Shown one piece after another: positions 5,954 to 13,147 of a stretch of 13,319 bases of DNA. Where the stretch lies: the NCBI GenBank assembly GCA_029054485.1, contig JAIDFD010000148.1:1-13319 (forward strand), written 5' to 3'. The first letter of the stretch is position 1, and each line of letters opens with the position of its first letter. The translations under genes were made by a program, and so were the position numbers. Source of the stretch: Clostridia bacterium. Its GTDB lineage: Bacteria > Bacillota > Clostridia > Christensenellales > Borkfalkiaceae. Below the pieces are notes generated by a model that saw only the letters and a list, made by a program, of their open reading frames with translations, did not search any database and had not been told where the DNA came from.

Positions 5954-7459
5954 ATGTCAGAAAATTTTAAAAGGGGCGCGGGCGTTTTATGCCATATCTC
6001 GTCCCTTCCAAATAAATACGGAATAGGCTCTCTTGGCAAGGAAGCTTACGAATTTGCCGACCTGTTGCAAAAATCGCACGTCAAGTACTGGCAGATTTTG
6101 CCCCTTACGCAGACGGGCTTCGGCGACAGCCCCTACCAGTCGGTATGCTGTAACTCGGGCAATCCCTATTTTATCGATTTGGAAAGTCTGAAAGAAGAGG
6201 GGCTTATCGACGCGGAAGAATTGCAGTCGGCGGAAGCACCCGCAGGTAAAACGGACTACGCCGCGCTGTATAATACGAGATACAAAATTCTTCGCCTTGC
6301 CTATGCGCGTTTTAACTTAAAGGACGCGGAATTTGCCGACTTCGTTGAAAATGGCGGGTATGAAGATTATGCGCTGTTTATGTCGCTCAAAGAGCGTTTC
6401 GGCGGAACGTTCGATGAGTTCCCCGAAGCGTACAAGCACAAGGAAAACCTTGCAATGTACGAGTTTAAACAGTCGGTCTATAAAAGCGATTATCTTTTCT
6501 GGCAGTTCGTCCAGTTTATGTTCGCAAAGCAGTGGAAAAAGTTCAAAGCTTACGTCAACTCTTTGGGTATAAAAATTATCGGCGATTTGCCTTTGTACGT
6601 TGCGTATGACTCATCGGACGTCTGGGGACATCCCGAGTTTTTCCGCCTCGACGAGGATTTGAAGCCTGTCGCGGTTGCGGGTGTTCCGCCCGACTATTTT
6701 TCCCAAAAAGGTCAGCTTTGGGGTAACCCGCTCTATGACTGGGACGCGCTTTCGGCGGCTAATTACGACTGGTGGATAGAGCGTATTCAGAAGGCGGCGG
6801 AGCTTTACGATGTAATCCGCATAGACCACTTCCGCGGTTTGGACAGGTACTACGCAATTCCCGCGGATGCGGAAACGGCGGAAGAGGGCGTTTGGCTTCC
6901 CGGTCCCGGTATGCGCCTTTTCAACGAGATAAGAAGAAGGCTTGGCGAGCTTGAAATTATCGCCGAGGACTTGGGAATACTTGACGCGGGCGTACACAAA
7001 CTGCGCGCAAGAACGGGTTTTCCCGGAATGAAGATTTTGCAGTTTGCGTTCGACGGCTCGGACGGCAATCCTTACCTTCCAAAAAACATAGAAGAAAATT
7101 CGGTTGTTTACACGGGCACGCACGACAACGATACCACGCTCGGCTTTATAAACGCTATGTCGGACGAGGAGTTCAAGCAGTTCAAGACTATGCTCCGTGC
7201 GGCGCTTGCAAGCGTGAAAGCGGTGTTCCCTATGGTATCGCGCGAGGACGCGGTGCTTGCTCTGAACGCTTGCGCACTGGCTTCAAAAGCGCGTTTGGCG
7301 GTAATACCCGTGCAGGATATTCTCGTTTTGGGGACCGAGGCGAGAATGAATATTCCGTCCACGGCTATCGGCAACTGGCAGTTCCGCCTTGAAAGTATGC
7401 CTGACAGACTGCATACGGCAATTCTCAGAAAAAACATAGACCAGTATAAAAGAAAATAA
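5954..7459 (+). CDS. malQ: 4-alpha-glucanotransferase (amylomaltase, GH77)
   Basis: MalQ transfers alpha-1,4-glucan segments between maltodextrins in the cytoplasm, for glycogen or maltodextrin turnover. The GH77 fold begins with GAGVLCHISSLPNKYGIG and a FGDSPYQS segment. The three catalytic carboxylates are recognisable: the nucleophile Asp291 in IRIDHFRG, the acid/base Glu338 in IIAEDLG, and Asp391 in THDNDT. At 501 residues it is the short, compact bacterial form, not the ~690-residue E. coli form. The ATG at 5954 has only a weak GGTG upstream, so translation may depend on coupling to dapL, whose stop is 9 nt away. No glycogen or maltose genes are adjacent. No terminator is visible after the TAA, so transcripts may read into the M-box leader. 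Confidence 0.95.
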   Translation: MSENFKRGAGVLCHISSLPNKYGIGSLGKEAYEFADLLQKSHVKYWQILPLTQTGFGDSPYQSVCCNSGNPYFIDLESLKEEGLIDAEELQSAEAPAGKTDYAALYNTRYKILRLAYARFNLKDAEFADFVENGGYEDYALFMSLKERFGGTFDEFPEAYKHKENLAMYEFKQSVYKSDYLFWQFVQFMFAKQWKKFKAYVNSLGIKIIGDLPLYVAYDSSDVWGHPEFFRLDEDLKPVAVAGVPPDYFSQKGQLWGNPLYDWDALSAANYDWWIERIQKAAELYDVIRIDHFRGLDRYYAIPADAETAEEGVWLPGPGMRLFNEIRRRLGELEIIAEDLGILDAGVHKLRARTGFPGMKILQFAFDGSDGNPYLPKNIEENSVVYTGTHDNDTTLGFINAMSDEEFKQFKTMLRAALASVKAVFPMVSREDAVLALNACALASKARLAVIPVQDILVLGTEARMNIPSTAIGNWQFRLESMPDRLHTAILRKNIDQYKRK

Positions 7460-7485
7460 TATTTAAAAAAAGCGGTTTAATTTTG

Positions 7486-7514
7486 TTGACTAAATTTTTC
7501 CGCGGGCATATAAT
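7486..7514 (+). promoter_or_regulatory. Promoter for the M-box leader and mgtA
   Basis: TTGACT (7486-7491) and a perfect TATAAT (7509-7514) with a 17-bp spacer. Initiation near 7521 would place the start immediately before the riboswitch aptamer. Confidence 0.88.
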
Positions 7515-7521
7515 GACAAAG

Positions 7522-7668
7522 TAATCGGTAGGTGAGGCTACTATTAAGGATACGGGCTGTTGCCGCAAACAATGGAGACATTGTCAGTTGGTTTGAACAG
7601 GCTACATCGAAAACAAGGTGTAGCATAACACAGTTTCATTGCCTAATAGAGCTAAAGCTTGAACGTTA
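7522..7668 (+). ncRNA. M-box (ykoK leader) Mg2+ riboswitch
   Basis: This Mg2+-sensing RNA folds tightly when Mg2+ is plentiful and then allows the downstream terminator to form. The sequence shows the characteristic 5' block GGTAGGTGAGGCTACTAT, a GGATACGGGCTGTTGCCG core and the 3' block AGAGCTAAAGCTT, as in the B. subtilis ykoK/mgtE leader. Internal helices are visible: 7569-7574 with 7579-7584 capped by GAGA (a GNRA tetraloop), and 7601-7608 with 7617-7624 (one G-U pair). A consensus promoter immediately upstream, a terminator 22 nt downstream and an mgtA gene after it fit the known regulon. The outer boundaries are approximate because the closing P1 helix was not resolved. Confidence 0.9.
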
Positions 7669-7689
7669 GACTTATAAAAAGTTTTTTCT

Positions 7690-7726
7690 TCACGCATACC
7701 TGTCGGTTTGCGTGATTTTTTATTTG
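7690..7726 (+). terminator. Riboswitch expression-platform terminator
   Basis: TCACGCATACC (7690-7700) pairs with GGTTTGCGTGA (7705-7715) across a TGTC tetraloop, with one U-U mismatch. A TTTTTTATTT tract follows. It sits directly after the M-box, so it is the expected Mg2+-dependent transcription stop. A complete competing antiterminator was not identified with confidence; short stretches of the aptamer 5' end (7527-7530 and 7532-7535) could pair with both ends of the left arm. Confidence 0.88.
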
Positions 7727-7832
7727 TAGGGTCAAATATGGACAGTTATCACAGTTGTAAATTGAATAAACTTTTAAGAAAGCGATATAGTTTTTCGTCC
7801 TTTTGCACGGCGTTTTTACGAAAGAGGTAAAA
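7727..7832 (+). other. Leader segment between the M-box terminator and the first small ORF
   Basis: About 105 nt of A/T-rich sequence with no ORF supported by a ribosome binding site. It contains a weak promoter-like pair TTGAAT (7762-7767) and TATAGT (7786-7791) with an 18-bp spacer, which could start a second transcript near 7798 that bypasses the riboswitch. GACAGTTATC (7741-7750) is the perfect reverse complement of 8022-8031. ACGGCG (7807-7812) can pair with the left arm of the second terminator. Confidence 0.4.
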
Positions 7833-7835
7833 ATG
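7811..7835 (+). promoter_or_regulatory. Hairpin enclosing the ribosome binding site and start of the 24-codon ORF
   Basis: CGTTTTTAC (7811-7819) pairs with GTAAAAATG (7827-7835), with one G-U pair. The 7-nt loop GAAAGAG and the closing G carry the Shine-Dalgarno bases, and the start codon 7833-7835 is wholly inside the stem. The stem is A/U-rich, so it is probably marginally stable and could act as a translational gate. Confidence 0.45.
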
Positions 7836-7907
7836 CAGGTGCTTGATTTTGGCGCGCGCAACCGTCGTTTTCTTGAAAGAGATTACGGCGGTTTTTTTAT
7901 GCCCTGA
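7833..7907 (+). CDS. Putative 24-residue leader peptide upstream of mgtA
   Basis: A small ORF beginning ATG CAG GTG and ending ATG CCC TGA. An AGAGG Shine-Dalgarno (7823-7827) stands 5 nt before the ATG. The predicted peptide starts MQVLDFGARN, has an Arg-rich centre (RNRRFLER) and ends GGFFMP; it has no signal peptide or membrane segment. Its second half encodes both arms of an intrinsic terminator (7860-7898), and the stop codon lies 7 nt beyond the T-tract. A ribosome translating to the end would melt that hairpin, the architecture of a translation-controlled attenuator. It resembles no peptide I recognise, and it has no proline/acidic run like the E. coli MgtL leader peptide. It may be fortuitous; the evidence is positional only. 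Confidence 0.45.
   Translation: MQVLDFGARNRRFLERDYGGFFMP
7860..7898 (+). terminator. Second intrinsic terminator, inside the 24-codon ORF
   Basis: AACCGTCGT (7860-7868) pairs with ACGGCGGTT (7885-7893) with one G-U pair. The 16-nt loop can form a small internal helix. Seven consecutive Ts run from 7892 to 7898. Because mgtA begins more than 200 nt later with no new strong promoter between, this must be read through for riboswitch-initiated mgtA transcription, so it is probably conditional. Confidence 0.68.
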
Positions 7908-7942
7908 AATAAAAATCAAAAATTCAAAAAATCAAAGGAGGT
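7908..7942 (+). promoter_or_regulatory. A-rich unstructured stretch ending in a strong ribosome binding site
   Basis: Three short TCAAA repeats in an A-rich run lead into AAAGGAGGT (7934-7942), a near-perfect match to the 16S rRNA anti-Shine-Dalgarno. It is 7 nt before the ATG at 7950. It marks the 35-codon ORF as a plausible translated gene. Confidence 0.65.
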
Positions 7943-7949
7943 ACACGGT

Positions 7950-8057
7950 ATGGAAGCAACGGACGGTTATCCAAGTATAAAAGACGTAAAGCTAAAAGGT
8001 TACGGAATTTCGCACTGTTCCGATAACTGTCGTTGCGGCACGGCCGAAAACCTTTAA
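7950..8057 (+). CDS. Hypothetical 35-residue Cys-containing small protein upstream of mgtA
   Basis: A short ORF with one of the best ribosome binding sites in the window (AAAGGAGGT, 7-nt spacing). The predicted peptide is hydrophilic. It begins MEATDGYPSIKD, passes through a basic middle (VKLKGYG) and ends with a cluster HCSDNCRCG (His22, Cys23, Cys27, Cys29) before a TAENL tail. There is no signal peptide, membrane helix or coiled coil. The His/Cys cluster could bind a metal or form disulfides; this is inference. It ends 54 nt before mgtA. It could be a regulatory micropeptide, a second leader peptide whose translation influences RNA folding (AAAGGTT at 7995-8001 pairs with AACCTTT at 8049-8055, within the ORF), or an independent small protein. 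I do not recognise a family. Confidence 0.6.
   Translation: MEATDGYPSIKDVKLKGYGISHCSDNCRCGTAENL
7995..8055 (+). repeat. Long-range hairpin within the 35-codon ORF
   Basis: AAAGGTT (7995-8001) and AACCTTT (8049-8055) form a 7-bp stem. CGG (8003-8005) with CCG (8044-8046) and CGCA (8011-8014) with TGCG (8034-8037) can stack inside it. No clean T-tract follows, so it is not a standard terminator. Its base includes the ORF stop codon. Confidence 0.35.
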
Positions 8058-8098
8058 ACTTTCGTCTTTTATGCTCTTTATGTTCTGAAAATAAAATC

Positions 8099-8105
8099 GG
8101 GAGGT
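8099..8105 (+). promoter_or_regulatory. mgtA ribosome binding site
   Basis: GGGAGGT stands 6 nt before the ATG at 8112, a strong site that fixes the mgtA start. The 41 nt between the small-ORF stop and this site hold no other feature I can identify. Confidence 0.8.
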
Positions 8106-8111
8106 AAATCT

Positions 8112-10829
8112 ATGAAAAAGGAACTTAAAGAAGTAAAGAAAAAGACTCTCGGTGAAAAGTTCACCAAAAAAGTATTAGAAAGCACCCTGAACGCGGAAGT
8201 TACCGAAAGGCTGAAATTCGCGTCTACGCACAAGACGGAAAGCATCTATAAAAAATTCAATACAAGCGGGTTCGGACTTTCGCCACTGGAAGTTGAGGAG
8301 AGGAGAAAAGAATATGGTGCAAACGTTGTAAAAAGCAAAAAAAATAAATCGGTATTAAAAAGAATTTGCGAGGCGTTTATCAATCCTTTTACCGCGATAC
8401 TTTTTCTGCTTGCGGTTATATCGGTTTTTACGGACATAGTCTTTGCCGAGCCTGCCGAGCAAAACCCCGCAACCGTAATTATAATTTCGGTTATGGTGAT
8501 AATTTCGGGACTGCTGCGTTTTATTCAGGACACCCGCTCGGGCAACGCGGCGGCAAAACTCGCCAAAATGGTAAACACGACTGCGGCGGTAGAAAGAAAC
8601 GATCAGGTGCGTGAAATCCCGCTCGAAGAAATAGTCGTGGGCGATTTGGTTCATCTCTCCGCGGGCGATATAATTCCCGCCGATATGAGAATTATTACCG
8701 CAAAAGATTTGTTCGTCAGCCAGTCCGCCCTTACGGGTGAAAGTGCGCCCGTCGAAAAAATCTGCGACACGGTGGACGAACAAAAGGCTGTTACCGATTG
8801 CGAAAATCTTGCCTTTATGGGCAGTAACGTTATAAGCGGCAGCGGAATAGGCTTGGTTCTTTCGGTCGGCAACGACACAATGTTCGGCAGTATCGCAAAA
8901 TCGCTGAGCGGCAAGCCGCACAAAACGAGCTTTGAAAAAGGCATAGGTAAGGTTTCGTGGCTGTTAATACGCTTTATGCTCGTAATGGTACCCGTTGTGT
9001 TACTCATCAACGGATTTACCAAAGGCAACTGGATTGAGGCACTTCTTTTTGCCGTTTCGGTCGCGGTTGGACTCACGCCCGAAATGCTGCCTATGATAGT
9101 CACCGCCGCGCTCGCAAAAGGCTCGGTCGCTATGAGCAAAAAGAAAGTAATAGTCAAAAATCTCAACGCTATACAAAATCTAGGCGCAATAGATATTCTC
9201 TGCACGGATAAGACGGGAACGCTTACGCAGGATAAAGTCCTTCTTGAAAAGCATATGAACGTCCACGGCGACGATGACGACAGAGTTTTGCGCCACGCCT
9301 GGCTGAATATCTTCTACCAGACTGGACTGAAAAATTTAATAGATATTGCCGTAATTGATAAGTTCAACGAAATTTTCGGCAACTCCTTGGACGGCGCGTT
9401 CAACAAGGTTGACGAAATTCCCTTTGACTTCGAACGCCGCAGAATGAGCGTAATAATTTCGGACGGAAAGGGGAAAGCGCAACTCATAACAAAGGGCGCG
9501 GTCGAAGAAATGCTTAAATGCTGTTCGTATGCGGAGTACGACGGAAAAGTAGAGCGGATTTCCAACAAACTGCGCAAATTTATCCTCGATAAAGCGGAAG
9601 AGCTGAACACGGGCGGTATGCGCGTGATTGCGGTTGCGCAGAAAAACGTAACCGGCGTCCCCGGCGAATTCAAAGTCGCGGACGAAAGCGATATGGTGCT
9701 TATCGGTTATCTGGCATTCCTCGATCCGCCCAAGCCTACAACGGCAAAGGCAATCAAGAGTCTGCAAGAGTACGGCGTTGCAGTTAAAATTCTTACGGGC
9801 GACAACGAAAAAGTCACCGCAAGCATATGCAAGCAGGTAGGCCTTGAAGTAAACGAGGTACTGCTCGGCGGCGAAGTGGATAATCTCACCGACGAAGAGC
9901 TTGCCGCAAAAGCGGAAACGATAAACGTCTTTGCAAAACTTTCTCCCGCGCAGAAAGCCCGCGTAATCCGCGTACTGCGTGCAAACAAGCACACCGTAGG
10001 CTATATGGGCGACGGAATAAACGACGCTATGGCGATGAAAGAATCGGACGTGGGAATTTCTGTAGACACGGCTGTTGATATTGCCAAGGAGTCGGCGGAT
10101 ATAATTCTGCTTGAAAAGGATCTGACAATTCTCAAAGACGGAATAGTAGAGGGAAGAAAGACTTACGCCAATATGATTAAGTACATCAAAATGACGGCGT
10201 CATCCAACTTCGGTAATATGTTTTCGGTGCTTGTGGCAAGCGCGTTTTTGCCCTTTATTCCAATGGCGGCAATTCAACTTGTATTGCTCAATCTCATTTA
10301 CGATATTTCGTGTACGGCAATCCCTTGGGACAACGTAGACAAAGAATTTTTGAAAAAGCCCCGCGCCTGGGAAACGAAGTCTATCGGCTCGTTTATGATA
10401 TGGCTCGGACCTGTAAGTTCGATTTTCGATATTACGACTTACCTTTTAATGTTCTTCGTGATTTGCCCTCTTGCTTGCGGCGGCAACTTCAACACCCTCG
10501 ACCCCGCTATGCAGGCGCAGTTTATAGCGGTATTTCAGGCGGGCTGGTTTATTGAGTCAATGTGGAGTCAAACGCTTGTCATTCATATGATAAGAACGCC
10601 GCACTTGCCCTTTATCAAGAGCCGCGCGTCACTGCCCATAACGCTTTTGACCTTTGCGGGCATAGCGGTTGCTACGGTAATTCCCTTCACGCCGCTCGGC
10701 ACGCTTTTGGGACTTGCGCCCGTTCCCGCAATCTACTTTGCGGTCCTTGCAGTAACGATAATCGCTTACATGGCACTTGTAACTCTTGTAAAGATGCTGT
10801 ACGTAAAACGGCACGGCGAACTTTTATAA
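8112..10829 (+). CDS. mgtA: Magnesium-transporting P-type ATPase (type IIIB, MgtA/MgtB family)
   Basis: MgtA imports Mg2+ across the cytoplasmic membrane using ATP. At 905 residues it matches the family (E. coli MgtA is about 900). A Lys-rich N-terminal tail of about 80 residues precedes two membrane helices (roughly 92-111 and 119-137). The actuator domain has TGES at 208-211. A second helix pair contains the family signature TPEMLP. The phosphorylation motif is DKTGT with Asp366, and TGDN (562-565) and GDGIND (633-638) form the ATP and hinge sites. The C-terminal helices carry [18 protein letters not shown] and the [17 protein letters not shown] segment, all typical of MgtA rather than of Ca2+, heavy-metal or KdpB pumps. 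The upstream M-box riboswitch independently supports the Mg2+ assignment. Expression is expected when cytosolic Mg2+ is low. It is followed by a strong shared terminator and appears to have no cotranscribed downstream gene. Confidence 0.97.
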
Positions 10830-10879: not shown

Positions 10880-13147
10880 TTATTTTGCGAAAAGGCGGGT
10901 GCAGAGGACGGTCATATCGTCTGCGACAGTCTGATTGCATCGGGCGAGCGCACCCGCAAGAATTTTGTCGGCGAGGTTCTGCGGATTTAAGGGGTTCAGC
11001 CCCTGCAAAAACTCGTATAAATCAGAGTAAGAGGGAAAAGCGGAAGTTATGCCGTCTGACATAAACACGACTATGTCGCCGCTTTTCAGCTGTTCACTGC
11101 AAACGTTGGGGCGCAGGTTGTCAAGTATGCCCAAAGGCAGGCTTTGACTTTCAAGCACTTTGATTTCACCCTCGCGCACTATAACTCCTGCGGGCGAGCC
11201 GATTTTTACGAAGTCGGCAATTCCCGTATTAAGGTTGACAGCCGCAATATCTATGCAGGTAAACCGTTCGTCTCGGTTAAATGACAAAAGCTTGTTTATC
11301 GTCTTTAAAACAGTGCCCTCGGGCATCTCGGCGCGGTAAAAGGCTTCTATGAGCGAAATAGCGGTGGCAGACACCTTTTTCGCGTATTCGCCGCTGCCCA
11401 TACCGTCTGAAAGTGCCATTAAGAAACTGTGTTCGTTTATGCGTATAACCGAGTGGGTGTCGCCCGAAACGCGTTCGCCGTTCTTTACCGCAAACGCAAC
11501 TCCGAAAGCGGCGTCGAGAGCGGGCGGCGCTCCGAAAACAAGACAGCTTTTTTCGCCGTCATAGTTCAGTCTGTCTTTTAAGACGTACTTTTTGTCCGTG
11601 CAGGCAGTAATTATATCGGTAATAAGTTTTACGTTGATTTTTCCGCAGATTACAGCGCAGATTTCCATATCATCGCCGCCAACGTAAAGCTCTGGACAGG
11701 AAATTCCGCTCGTTGAAAGCTTGCGCTTAATCTGTTCTTCCAGTGCGGAGTACTCGCTGTAACTTTTACTAAGTTCCACCGCGCAGGCTTTCATAACCTC
11801 GGCAACCCCGCGCGCCTGATCGGCGAGTAAAATCCGTCCGCTTTTTGCATTTTCGGCTTCGGTCATATATCTGCGGTATTCAGCTATTACAGAGTTCAGA
11901 ATAGCTAGTAGGTCGGCAGGCTTCGCGCAGTTTAAAGTGACCTCGCTCGGTAAATCGATAAGATTTACTTTGCCCTTTACACAGCCTGTGTCAATCAGTT
12001 TTTTAAACCCTGCGTAAACGTTCGTTGAAGCGCATTTTTTAGCGCGGGCGCAATTTTTACAGCACTTGTCACGCAAATCCGCAAGCATTCTTGCACGCGC
12101 GCCTCCGTCGTTCACGTCCTCGTCCAAAGCGTTGAACGCGCACTCTATTTCGCGGAAAACTTCGGATATGCGGTAAAGCTTTTCACCCGTGCGCCTGCGG
12201 TTTCTTTCCACGGCGGTGTCGGGCAAAACTTCTTTGACAAGCAGAGAATTTTTCAGCTTCGTGAAAAACGAGGCGGGAGGAATTGCGGGCAAGGTCATAA
12301 AAACAAGAAGAATAATCACGCGGAACACAATAAGTCCGGCGGAGCAGGCGAATCCGCCCGTGAAGTACATATAAACGGTTGTCGCCGCCAAAGTTACTAT
12401 ACTCGGAAACACCCTGCCCGCGTTTGAAAAAAGTAGCGCGAGTACCGCGCCCGAAATATATACGGTTAGGGGCATTGGCGAAAGATTGACGACCGCGGGC
12501 GGCAGCGCCGCAACAAGGGCGGCAATGATGGCTGCGGGCGAGCGGGCAAGCCTTACGCAGAAAACTATGAGCCCCGCGGCAAACGCGGTGTATACGAAAA
12601 CGCCCGTAAGGTTGTAAAACCCTGTGCCTGCGGCGGCATAGACTACCGCACAGCAGACAAGCTCGTCCTCTTTAAGACGGCATCTGTACACGCGGTACAT
12701 AACGGCGTATACCGTTTTAAAACAGAAGAATGAAAAGACCACCGTTGCGGCGGCGGCAACCGCTTTTAAGGCGTATTCGTTGTCGATAATTTCTAACGCG
12801 CTGACGCCCTTCCACGGCGCAAAAGCTATGTATAAGGAGAGCGCGATTGCGATATACGCAATTCCCTCAAACTTGATTTTGCGGTTGGTGCGCCTGTACA
12901 AAAAAGTCACCGCGCACAAAAAACCGCCCTCGAACAGACTTAAAAGAGTCATAATCCAGTTGAGGTGGACGGCGGAAGCGGCAATGTACAAAAGAGGAGT
13001 CGCGATAATATTCGTGCCGCAGAGCAGCATTGCAAAATAAAGACCGATTGACAGCGGAACGCCGTCTATAGCCTTGTTCATTAAAACGAGTGCCGCCGTA
13101 TAGACGGCGTACATTATTACGCTTTTTAAATTGATTTTCAGGGGCAT
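10880..13147 (-). CDS. spoIIE: Stage II sporulation protein E (PP2C-type serine phosphatase)
   Basis: SpoIIE localises to the polar septum during sporulation and dephosphorylates the anti-anti-sigma factor SpoIIAA, releasing sigma-F in the forespore. Residues 1 to about 295 are a series of hydrophobic helices, as in the multi-pass N-terminus of the family. A soluble central part follows, with a Cys cluster (Cys362, 363, 366, 372) that I recall as common in the family. The C-terminal PP2C/SpoIIE phosphatase domain (from about 530) has ALSDGMGSGEYA with metal-binding Asp581, NTGIADFVKIGSPAG, and VFMSDGITSAF with Asp698. At 755 residues it is somewhat shorter than B. subtilis SpoIIE (about 830), with no core motif lost. 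The ATG at 13147 has no good Shine-Dalgarno; a TACAAT -10-like box ends 6 nt before it. The gene shows that the organism belongs to a spore-forming lineage, but SpoIIE alone does not prove that it sporulates. Confidence 0.95.
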   Translation of the reverse strand: MPLKINLKSVIMYAVYTAALVLMNKAIDGVPLSIGLYFAMLLCGTNIIATPLLYIAASAVHLNWIMTLLSLFEGGFLCAVTFLYRRTNRKIKFEGIAYIAIALSLYIAFAPWKGVSALEIIDNEYALKAVAAAATVVFSFFCFKTVYAVMYRVYRCRLKEDELVCCAVVYAAAGTGFYNLTGVFVYTAFAAGLIVFCVRLARSPAAIIAALVAALPPAVVNLSPMPLTVYISGAVLALLFSNAGRVFPSIVTLAATTVYMYFTGGFACSAGLIVFRVIILLVFMTLPAIPPASFFTKLKNSLLVKEVLPDTAVERNRRRTGEKLYRISEVFREIECAFNALDEDVNDGGARARMLADLRDKCCKNCARAKKCASTNVYAGFKKLIDTGCVKGKVNLIDLPSEVTLNCAKPADLLAILNSVIAEYRRYMTEAENAKSGRILLADQARGVAEVMKACAVELSKSYSEYSALEEQIKRKLSTSGISCPELYVGGDDMEICAVICGKINVKLITDIITACTDKKYVLKDRLNYDGEKSCLVFGAPPALDAAFGVAFAVKNGERVSGDTHSVIRINEHSFLMALSDGMGSGEYAKKVSATAISLIEAFYRAEMPEGTVLKTINKLLSFNRDERFTCIDIAAVNLNTGIADFVKIGSPAGVIVREGEIKVLESQSLPLGILDNLRPNVCSEQLKSGDIVVFMSDGITSAFPSYSDLYEFLQGLNPLNPQNLADKILAGALARCNQTVADDMTVLCTRLFAK

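Follow-up and report, generated by a model that had tools for sequence, protein, structure and literature searches.

Behind the M-box Mg2+ riboswitch of the window (the whole stretch of 13,319 nucleotides that was analysed), a second intrinsic terminator was found ahead of mgtA, and part of this terminator can instead pair with a segment inside a 30-codon leader ORF, uORF1. These elements, their recurrence in other leaders and their alternative pairings are present in the sequences. They suggest, with a probability that we put at roughly 0.6, that a ribosome-operated transcription attenuator stands between the M-box and mgtA, in which translation of uORF1 would turn mgtA off and early failure of translation would turn it on. 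The earlier note on this DNA had proposed a second attenuator here; its apparently translation-linked, MgtL-like logic is retained in this study, but the ORF and the direction of control that the note gave are replaced. Two more leader ORFs, uORF1 and uORF3, had been overlooked in that note.

Organization of the mgtA leader

On the plus strand of the window, the order is M-box, terminator 1, uORF1, terminator 2, uORF3 and mgtA. The leader is preceded by a sigma-70-like promoter, TTGACT-17-TATAAT, at 7486..7514 (11/12 matches; such sites are no commoner here than in shuffles). The M-box (ykoK leader) Mg2+ riboswitch aptamer at 7517..7678 matches the whole RF00380 model with 98.4 bits against a gathering score of 44. 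Its own intrinsic terminator lies at 7690..7721, with a hairpin (7690-7715) and a T tract that were read from the sequence and seen inside a larger fold. The regulated gene, mgtA (8112..10829), encodes a Mg2+-importing P-type ATPase (TIGR01524, 1157.5 bits). Beyond it, a minus-strand ORF of 755 aa (10880-13147) faces mgtA; by eye it is a putative membrane-bound PP2C-type (SpoIIE-like) phosphatase, an odd candidate in a 1.46-Mb genome.

The second terminator and its pairing with uORF1

The second intrinsic terminator, at 7860..7898 on the plus strand, has the 9-bp stem (7860-7868/7885-7893) and the seven Ts (7892-7898) that the earlier note had described, and its loop holds an inner 4-bp stem. 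The hairpin has a predicted energy of -17.8 kcal/mol (z -4.88), and none of 200 shuffles was equally stable; an intrinsic terminator thus lies ahead of the regulated gene. All five M-box-bearing genomes of the genus show a second terminator-like hairpin; in one of them (L004) the T tract is down to four Ts. The automatic terminator scan missed L004 on account of this short T tract, and gave the window's terminator only as an overlapping larger fold. Eighteen two-terminator leaders were picked by eye from the printed leaders and the scan; the selection of ORF starts and terminators was partly by eye.

uORF1 (MDSYHSCKLNKLLRKRYSFSSFCTAFLRKR; 7738..7830, plus strand), the proposed regulatory leader ORF, sits between the two terminators behind a weak Shine-Dalgarno (SD) sequence, TAGGG. 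It begins MDSYHS, with one acidic residue and no proline; the acidic content of such starts is modest throughout (one or two early D/E), and 17 of the 18 two-terminator leaders have an M[DE] N-terminus at this ORF. Its codons 12-17 contain element 1, the 5′ strand of the putative antiterminator (CTTTTAAGAAAGCGAT; 7771..7786, plus strand), which pairs with element 2 (GTCGTTTTCTTGAAAG; 7864..7879, plus strand). The latter covers the 5′ arm and the loop of terminator 2, and can pair either with element 1 or, in part, with the terminator's 3′ arm. The helix between the two elements is 16 bp long with G-U pairs allowed, and none of 300 shuffles gave one as long (p 0.003). Thus, the leader ORF overlaps one strand of an antiterminator that excludes the terminator.

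The pairing is not confined to the window. By energy, uORF1 and the terminator arm of the window pair with a z of -3.1, and its own arm ranks first of 18 arms. Across the 18 two-terminator leaders, the pairing gave a Stouffer value of -6.2 by energy and a Fisher p of 4.5e-5 by helix length, although these and the other p-values are overstated because the sequences are related; individually, 6/18 leaders reached p<0.05 by energy and 5/18 by helix length. Long helices of different sequence were found in distant leaders (16 bp in L093, 14 in L094, 12 in L098 and L092); this speaks in favour of the pairing, not of the sequence. Nearer to the window the result was weaker: among the nine other two-terminator leaders of its family, L072 alone reached p<0.05 by energy and none did by length, and the pairing energies of L002-L005, L084 and L086 gave p values of 0.09-0.82. 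GC-rich arms in the family leaders lower the power of the test, yet these leaders are still counted as a miss.

Folding with parts of uORF1 held single-stranded links this pairing to the position of a ribosome. When 7739-7770 (codons 1-11) was occupied, the antiterminator formed; this constraint ended, by chance, exactly at the edge of element 1. When 7739-7800 (codons 1-21), or the ORF through to its stop, was occupied, the terminator formed. In those five leaders whose helix length was significant, element 1 starts at nucleotides 24-43 of uORF1, so far in that a ribosome held on the first codons would just fail to reach it. Unconstrained folds disagree with one another, the terminator being favoured for a short segment and the antiterminator when the leader is folded whole.

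That the whole-leader fold yields the antiterminator with no ribosome would also suit an RNA-only second switch, or a terminator that damps expression constitutively, with uORF1 untranslated and its conserved start region serving as an RNA element. The shortness of the conserved block is consistent with this, as is the SD of uORF1, which is weak in the window and not evident in L004, L005 and L086; in L202, an extra two-terminator leader outside the 18, ACG stands where the ATG of uORF1 would be expected. Such an arrangement is nevertheless unlikely. Loci that differ in their pairing sequences still keep the start codon and an acidic second codon, SDs with as many as 10 matching bases precede leader ORFs elsewhere, and the Rfam scan of the window returned the M-box as its sole family, with no known RNA family over the second attenuator.

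Proposed mechanism

We infer that uORF1 is translated, that ribosomes drop off it at low Mg2+, and that its translation would lead to termination. A polymerase that passes the M-box terminator would transcribe uORF1 (7738-7830). Ribosomes that proceed beyond about codon 12 would then cover element 1, leaving the 5′ arm of the terminator free, and transcription would stop at 7892-7898. Ribosomes that fail in the first codons (MDSYHS), or never start, would leave element 1 free to pair with element 2 once the latter is made; the antiterminator would block the terminator, and the polymerase would run on into uORF3 and mgtA. Low Mg2+ itself is probably the signal, weakening ribosomes on the acidic N-terminus as in MgtL and probably mgtQ. 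It is the simplest signal because acidic residues cause the drop-off in MgtL and Asp2 and Glu5 matter in mgtQ; the same model could, alternatively, respond to a loss of translation capacity of any kind. With low Mg2+ as the signal, two Mg2+ checks of the same sign would follow in series, first the M-box and then the leader ORF.

The ORF at 7833

The earlier note had assigned the regulatory role to a different ORF, of 24 codons (MQVLDFGARNRRFLERDYGGFFMP; 7833..7907, plus strand), and had proposed that a ribosome translating it to the stop opens the terminator and permits mgtA transcription. The sequence features are as it described them: AGAGG lies just upstream of the ATG, and the ORF covers the stem and the T tract, with its stop beginning at 7905. 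In folds, occupation of this ORF abolishes the terminator hairpin. Moreover, uORF1 stops two bases before the 7833 ATG, so terminating ribosomes could restart there. The ATG is, however, buried in a stem with a 10-bp core, and the terminator would form directly behind the polymerase, so that a ribosome would have to trail it very closely. An SD-bearing ATG ORF across the terminator was found in only 1 of the 18 two-terminator leaders, the window's own; five others have an ATG ORF across the terminator without an SD. The homologous leaders therefore keep the stem and lack an ORF of the 7833 type, a pattern that the earlier note had itself named as refuting its proposal. An open frame of 24 codons behind a given ATG would be expected about once in three cases, given 3 stops among 64 codons, and is unremarkable.

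The ORF at 7833 is probably incidental, because its SD-bearing form across terminator 2 occurs in the window only; we judge it to be incidental or, at most, a product of reinitiation after uORF1. A strong hairpin at 7805-7842 holds both the uORF1 stop and the 7833 ATG, with AGAGG in or beside its loop, and it may perhaps block reinitiation. The direction of control would also be reversed, since the folds predict that translation of uORF1 leads to the terminator. A regulatory role for the 7833 ORF in the manner first proposed thus seems quite improbable. Still more remote is the note's other suggestion, an independent short RNA of about 100 nt starting near 7798 and ending at the terminator. 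A promoter-like TTGAAT-18-TATAGT (9/12) is present near 7762-7791, but it would lie inside uORF1, and 7300-8400 holds two promoter-like sites against 2.1 expected in shuffles, the better of which is the promoter of the M-box.

Distribution of leader ORFs before mgtA

M-boxes were found in 5 of 93 genomes of the genus, a count from which stricter filters may lose some, and all five precede mgtA. The five leaders share a common order: M-box, terminator 1, M[DE]S ORF, T-tract hairpin, M[NDE] ORF and mgtA. A DNA search of the genus with 7720-8111 recovered the window itself and otherwise nothing beyond weak matches of short length (best E 4.7e-5 over 33 bases), with none in the four M-box relatives. 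Of the 301 genomes of the window's family that were searched, 71 carry M-boxes, which lie at 74 places. Together with one from the genus search, 73 of these places (a partial match in G128 was left out) were sorted by downstream gene: 42 precede mgtE, 29 precede mgtA and three are cut by contig ends. Two loci of the family are identical over a 700-nt block to named records, one of which is Candidatus Borkfalkia excrementavium, and this match places the window's family. An SD-bearing leader ORF is absent from 41 of the 42 M-box-mgtE leaders of the family, which are short; this indicates that the leader ORF goes with mgtA and not with the M-box. The sole mgtE-type leader with a leader ORF (L048) has one of similar style, MEEGSNN... 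(MEEGSNNLKNTSSPHRSTGKRIIH).

Outside the family, Rfam confirmed RF00380 in 39/39 loci, and also in L202. The carriers of mgtA leaders of this kind include Lactococcus cremoris, Clostridium, Romboutsia, Trichococcus, Lacrimispora, Niameybacter and a betaproteobacterial MAG. In the locus labelled Betaproteobacteria (L135, 1349-2501), an M-box is followed by a leader ORF (MDPDSSHRHRS), a terminator, a putative MgtC-like gene (by eye) and mgtA; this arrangement suggests transfer or mis-binning.

When the M-box-mgtA leaders from the family, the named loci and the order were combined, and three duplicates (L133, L150 and L186) removed, 66 leaders remained. In 53 of them, a leader ORF has both an SD of at least 5 bases and D/E at residue 2. 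Ten of the other 13 have an SD-bearing leader ORF with a different residue 2 (six of these are M-N starts of the family); L106 and L178 each show, by eye, a weakly SD-bearing ORF, and in L149 there is none. The ORF adjoining mgtA has the consensus M-[DE]-x-G-S-S. Its residue 2 is D/E in 27/31 leaders outside the family and 20/29 inside, a tally in which D/E is favoured because starts were picked among several candidates and which covers the 60 of 66 leaders with an assigned ORF (L102, L135, L145, L149, L153 and L154 left out). The corresponding null is 22/203 (0.108) in long SD-bearing ORFs, namely those of at least 200 aa in 80 named loci, mgtA itself included.

Strong SDs, conserved N-termini and a position within the operon are also what one would see if these ORFs encoded small proteins acting in trans on MgtA or Mg2+ transport, with the terminator simply lowering expression. 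Salmonella MgtR and MgtU are described as peptides of that sort (PMC8092293). Against this, conservation is confined to about the first eight residues, and the following residues vary freely; the listed ORFs range from 19 to 60 codons, and that of L003 runs 93 codons into mgtA. None of uORF1, uORF3 and the 7833 ORF matched Pfam or NCBIfam at E up to 10. In addition, the regulatory arms pair with element 1, which is itself part of the ORF. A trans-acting product is accordingly a minor candidate, slightly less probable than the RNA-only switch and ahead of a regulatory 7833 ORF.

Some mgtA loci have a leader ORF and no M-box. Four relatives from the order, L187, L192, L195 and L203, each carry a promoter, a leader ORF of the form MDG.P..., a terminator and mgtA, with no M-box by Rfam; L198 resembles them (MENYD...), and L204 has MDAGGSS... 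and no Rfam match. The helix between ORF and terminator gave p 0.007 in L187 and 0.037 in L195, and was non-significant in L192, L203 and L198. Rfam found no M-box in L187, L192, L195, L198 and L181, nor in 15 further loci (L203-L208, L182, L184, L188-L191, L193, L194 and L199). Among 14 M-box-less mgtA loci, such a leader ORF occurs only in L187, L192, L195 and L198. In a second M-box-less set of seven, leader ORFs of this kind are present in L203 and L204, and L208 shows MPDRTS...; by eye, L205-L207 and L209 lack one. One locus of the window's own genus (L181, in G012) has mgtA with neither an M-box nor an SD-bearing leader ORF. Most M-box-less mgtA loci lack such a leader ORF, which counts against generality.

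uORF3 and a possible translation layer

Between terminator 2 and mgtA lies uORF3 (MEATDGYPSIKDVKLKGYGISHCSDNCRCGTAENL; 7950..8057, plus strand), with 35 codons, an SD of AAGGAGGT and an N-terminus that by eye resembles those of the relatives. An element within it (7974..7986, plus strand) can form a 13-bp helix (p 0.02) with 8063..8075, directly upstream of a predicted hairpin over the mgtA SD (8077..8108, plus strand). In a set of 49 leaders, a hairpin conceals the mgtA SD beyond the level of shuffles (Stouffer -9.4), and the 5′ strand of that hairpin is able to pair with the opening codons of the leader ORF (Stouffer -10.7 by energy). The longest-helix test was significant in the family (Fisher p 0.0005, with 5/28 leaders significant) but not in other lineages (Fisher p 0.23, with 4/27 leaders at p<0.05). 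An mgtQ-type combination of RBS hairpin and ORF pairing has support by energy over the 49 leaders, against a z of 0.0 in the window and the p of 0.23 for the other-lineage helix. In the relatives, the leader ORF adjoining mgtA seems to act on translation through the SD hairpin much as uORF1 would act on transcription. In the window the translation layer is putative, because the SD hairpin does not overlap the uORF3 helix and lacks significance.

Taken more broadly, the widespread M-[DE]-x-G-S-S... leader ORFs before Firmicute mgtA may constitute a Mg2+ sensor that works through the ribosome and has converged with MgtL and mgtQ. Placed behind the M-box, it would let Mg2+ be read by RNA and then by the ribosome, and it would be able to act alone where no M-box is present. 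In the window's group it would be doubled, first at transcription (uORF1 and the terminator) and then at translation (uORF3 and the SD hairpin). This generalization is tentative, and we rate its chance as a little short of even. Control by the M-box in Firmicutes is usually described as self-sufficient. If the generalization holds, the M-box before mgtA would often be the first of two or three gates, the later of which read the ribosome and not the ion. It would also become testable whether sensing by Mg2+-dependent failure of ribosomes is general beyond the enterobacteria, and for what reason mgtA, and not mgtE, needs an extra gate.

Comparison with known systems

In the trp and his attenuators, the position of the ribosome on a leader ORF selects the antiterminator or the terminator. 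The position of the ribosome on uORF1 would choose the fold in the same way; unlike those leaders, uORF1 has no run of codons for a single amino acid, follows a riboswitch and has an acidic start. Enterobacterial mgtA is not known to have an M-box upstream, whereas in the window the M-box precedes the leader ORF. Like MgtL, uORF1 is a leader ORF ahead of mgtA whose early residues include acidic ones, and the proposed direction is that reported for MgtL, where efficient translation turns mgtA off and ribosome drop-off at low Mg2+ turns it on (PMC11282234, PMC11552253). The systems differ in that termination is described as Rho-dependent in enterobacteria and would be intrinsic in the window, and the EPDP motif reported for MgtL (PMC11282234) is not found in uORF1 (MDSYHS).

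The closest match for uORF3 and the SD hairpin is mgtQ, an ORF of 8 codons between mgtC and mgtB of Salmonella, described with Asp2 and Glu5 and without a terminator (PMC8092293). Its short ORF, alternative stem-loops and control at the RBS of a Mg2+ P-type ATPase (PMC8092293) would have their counterparts in uORF3 and the predicted hairpin. The two would differ in sign at the level of the RNA: mgtQ is described as opening its RBS when a ribosome sits on stem region 1, whereas here covering element 1 should close it. The mgtM and mgtP ORFs of Salmonella mgtCBR also provide two serial leader ORFs with attenuation-like control of a Mg2+ transport operon (PMC3641672). In that system, as far as the account goes, the signals are ATP and charged tRNA-Pro, and an M-box is not mentioned (PMC3641672).

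The earlier note's statement that no M-box followed by a leader ORF of this kind had been described needs qualifying. Leader peptides in Firmicutes are treated in PMC2965389, and among the matches listed from open-licence full-text literature, judged by titles and the starts of abstracts, none concerned leader ORFs behind Firmicute M-boxes. However, uORFs behind M-boxes have been described in Mycobacterium tuberculosis (PMC12810186), and these are the nearest precedent among the matches listed. The pe20 and rv1535 leaders have the same succession of M-box, uORFs and regulated gene as the window (PMC12810186). According to the same source, they differ in forming a translational platform with Rho, in having a conserved uORF2 that is itself the regulated product, and in both the organism and the genes controlled.
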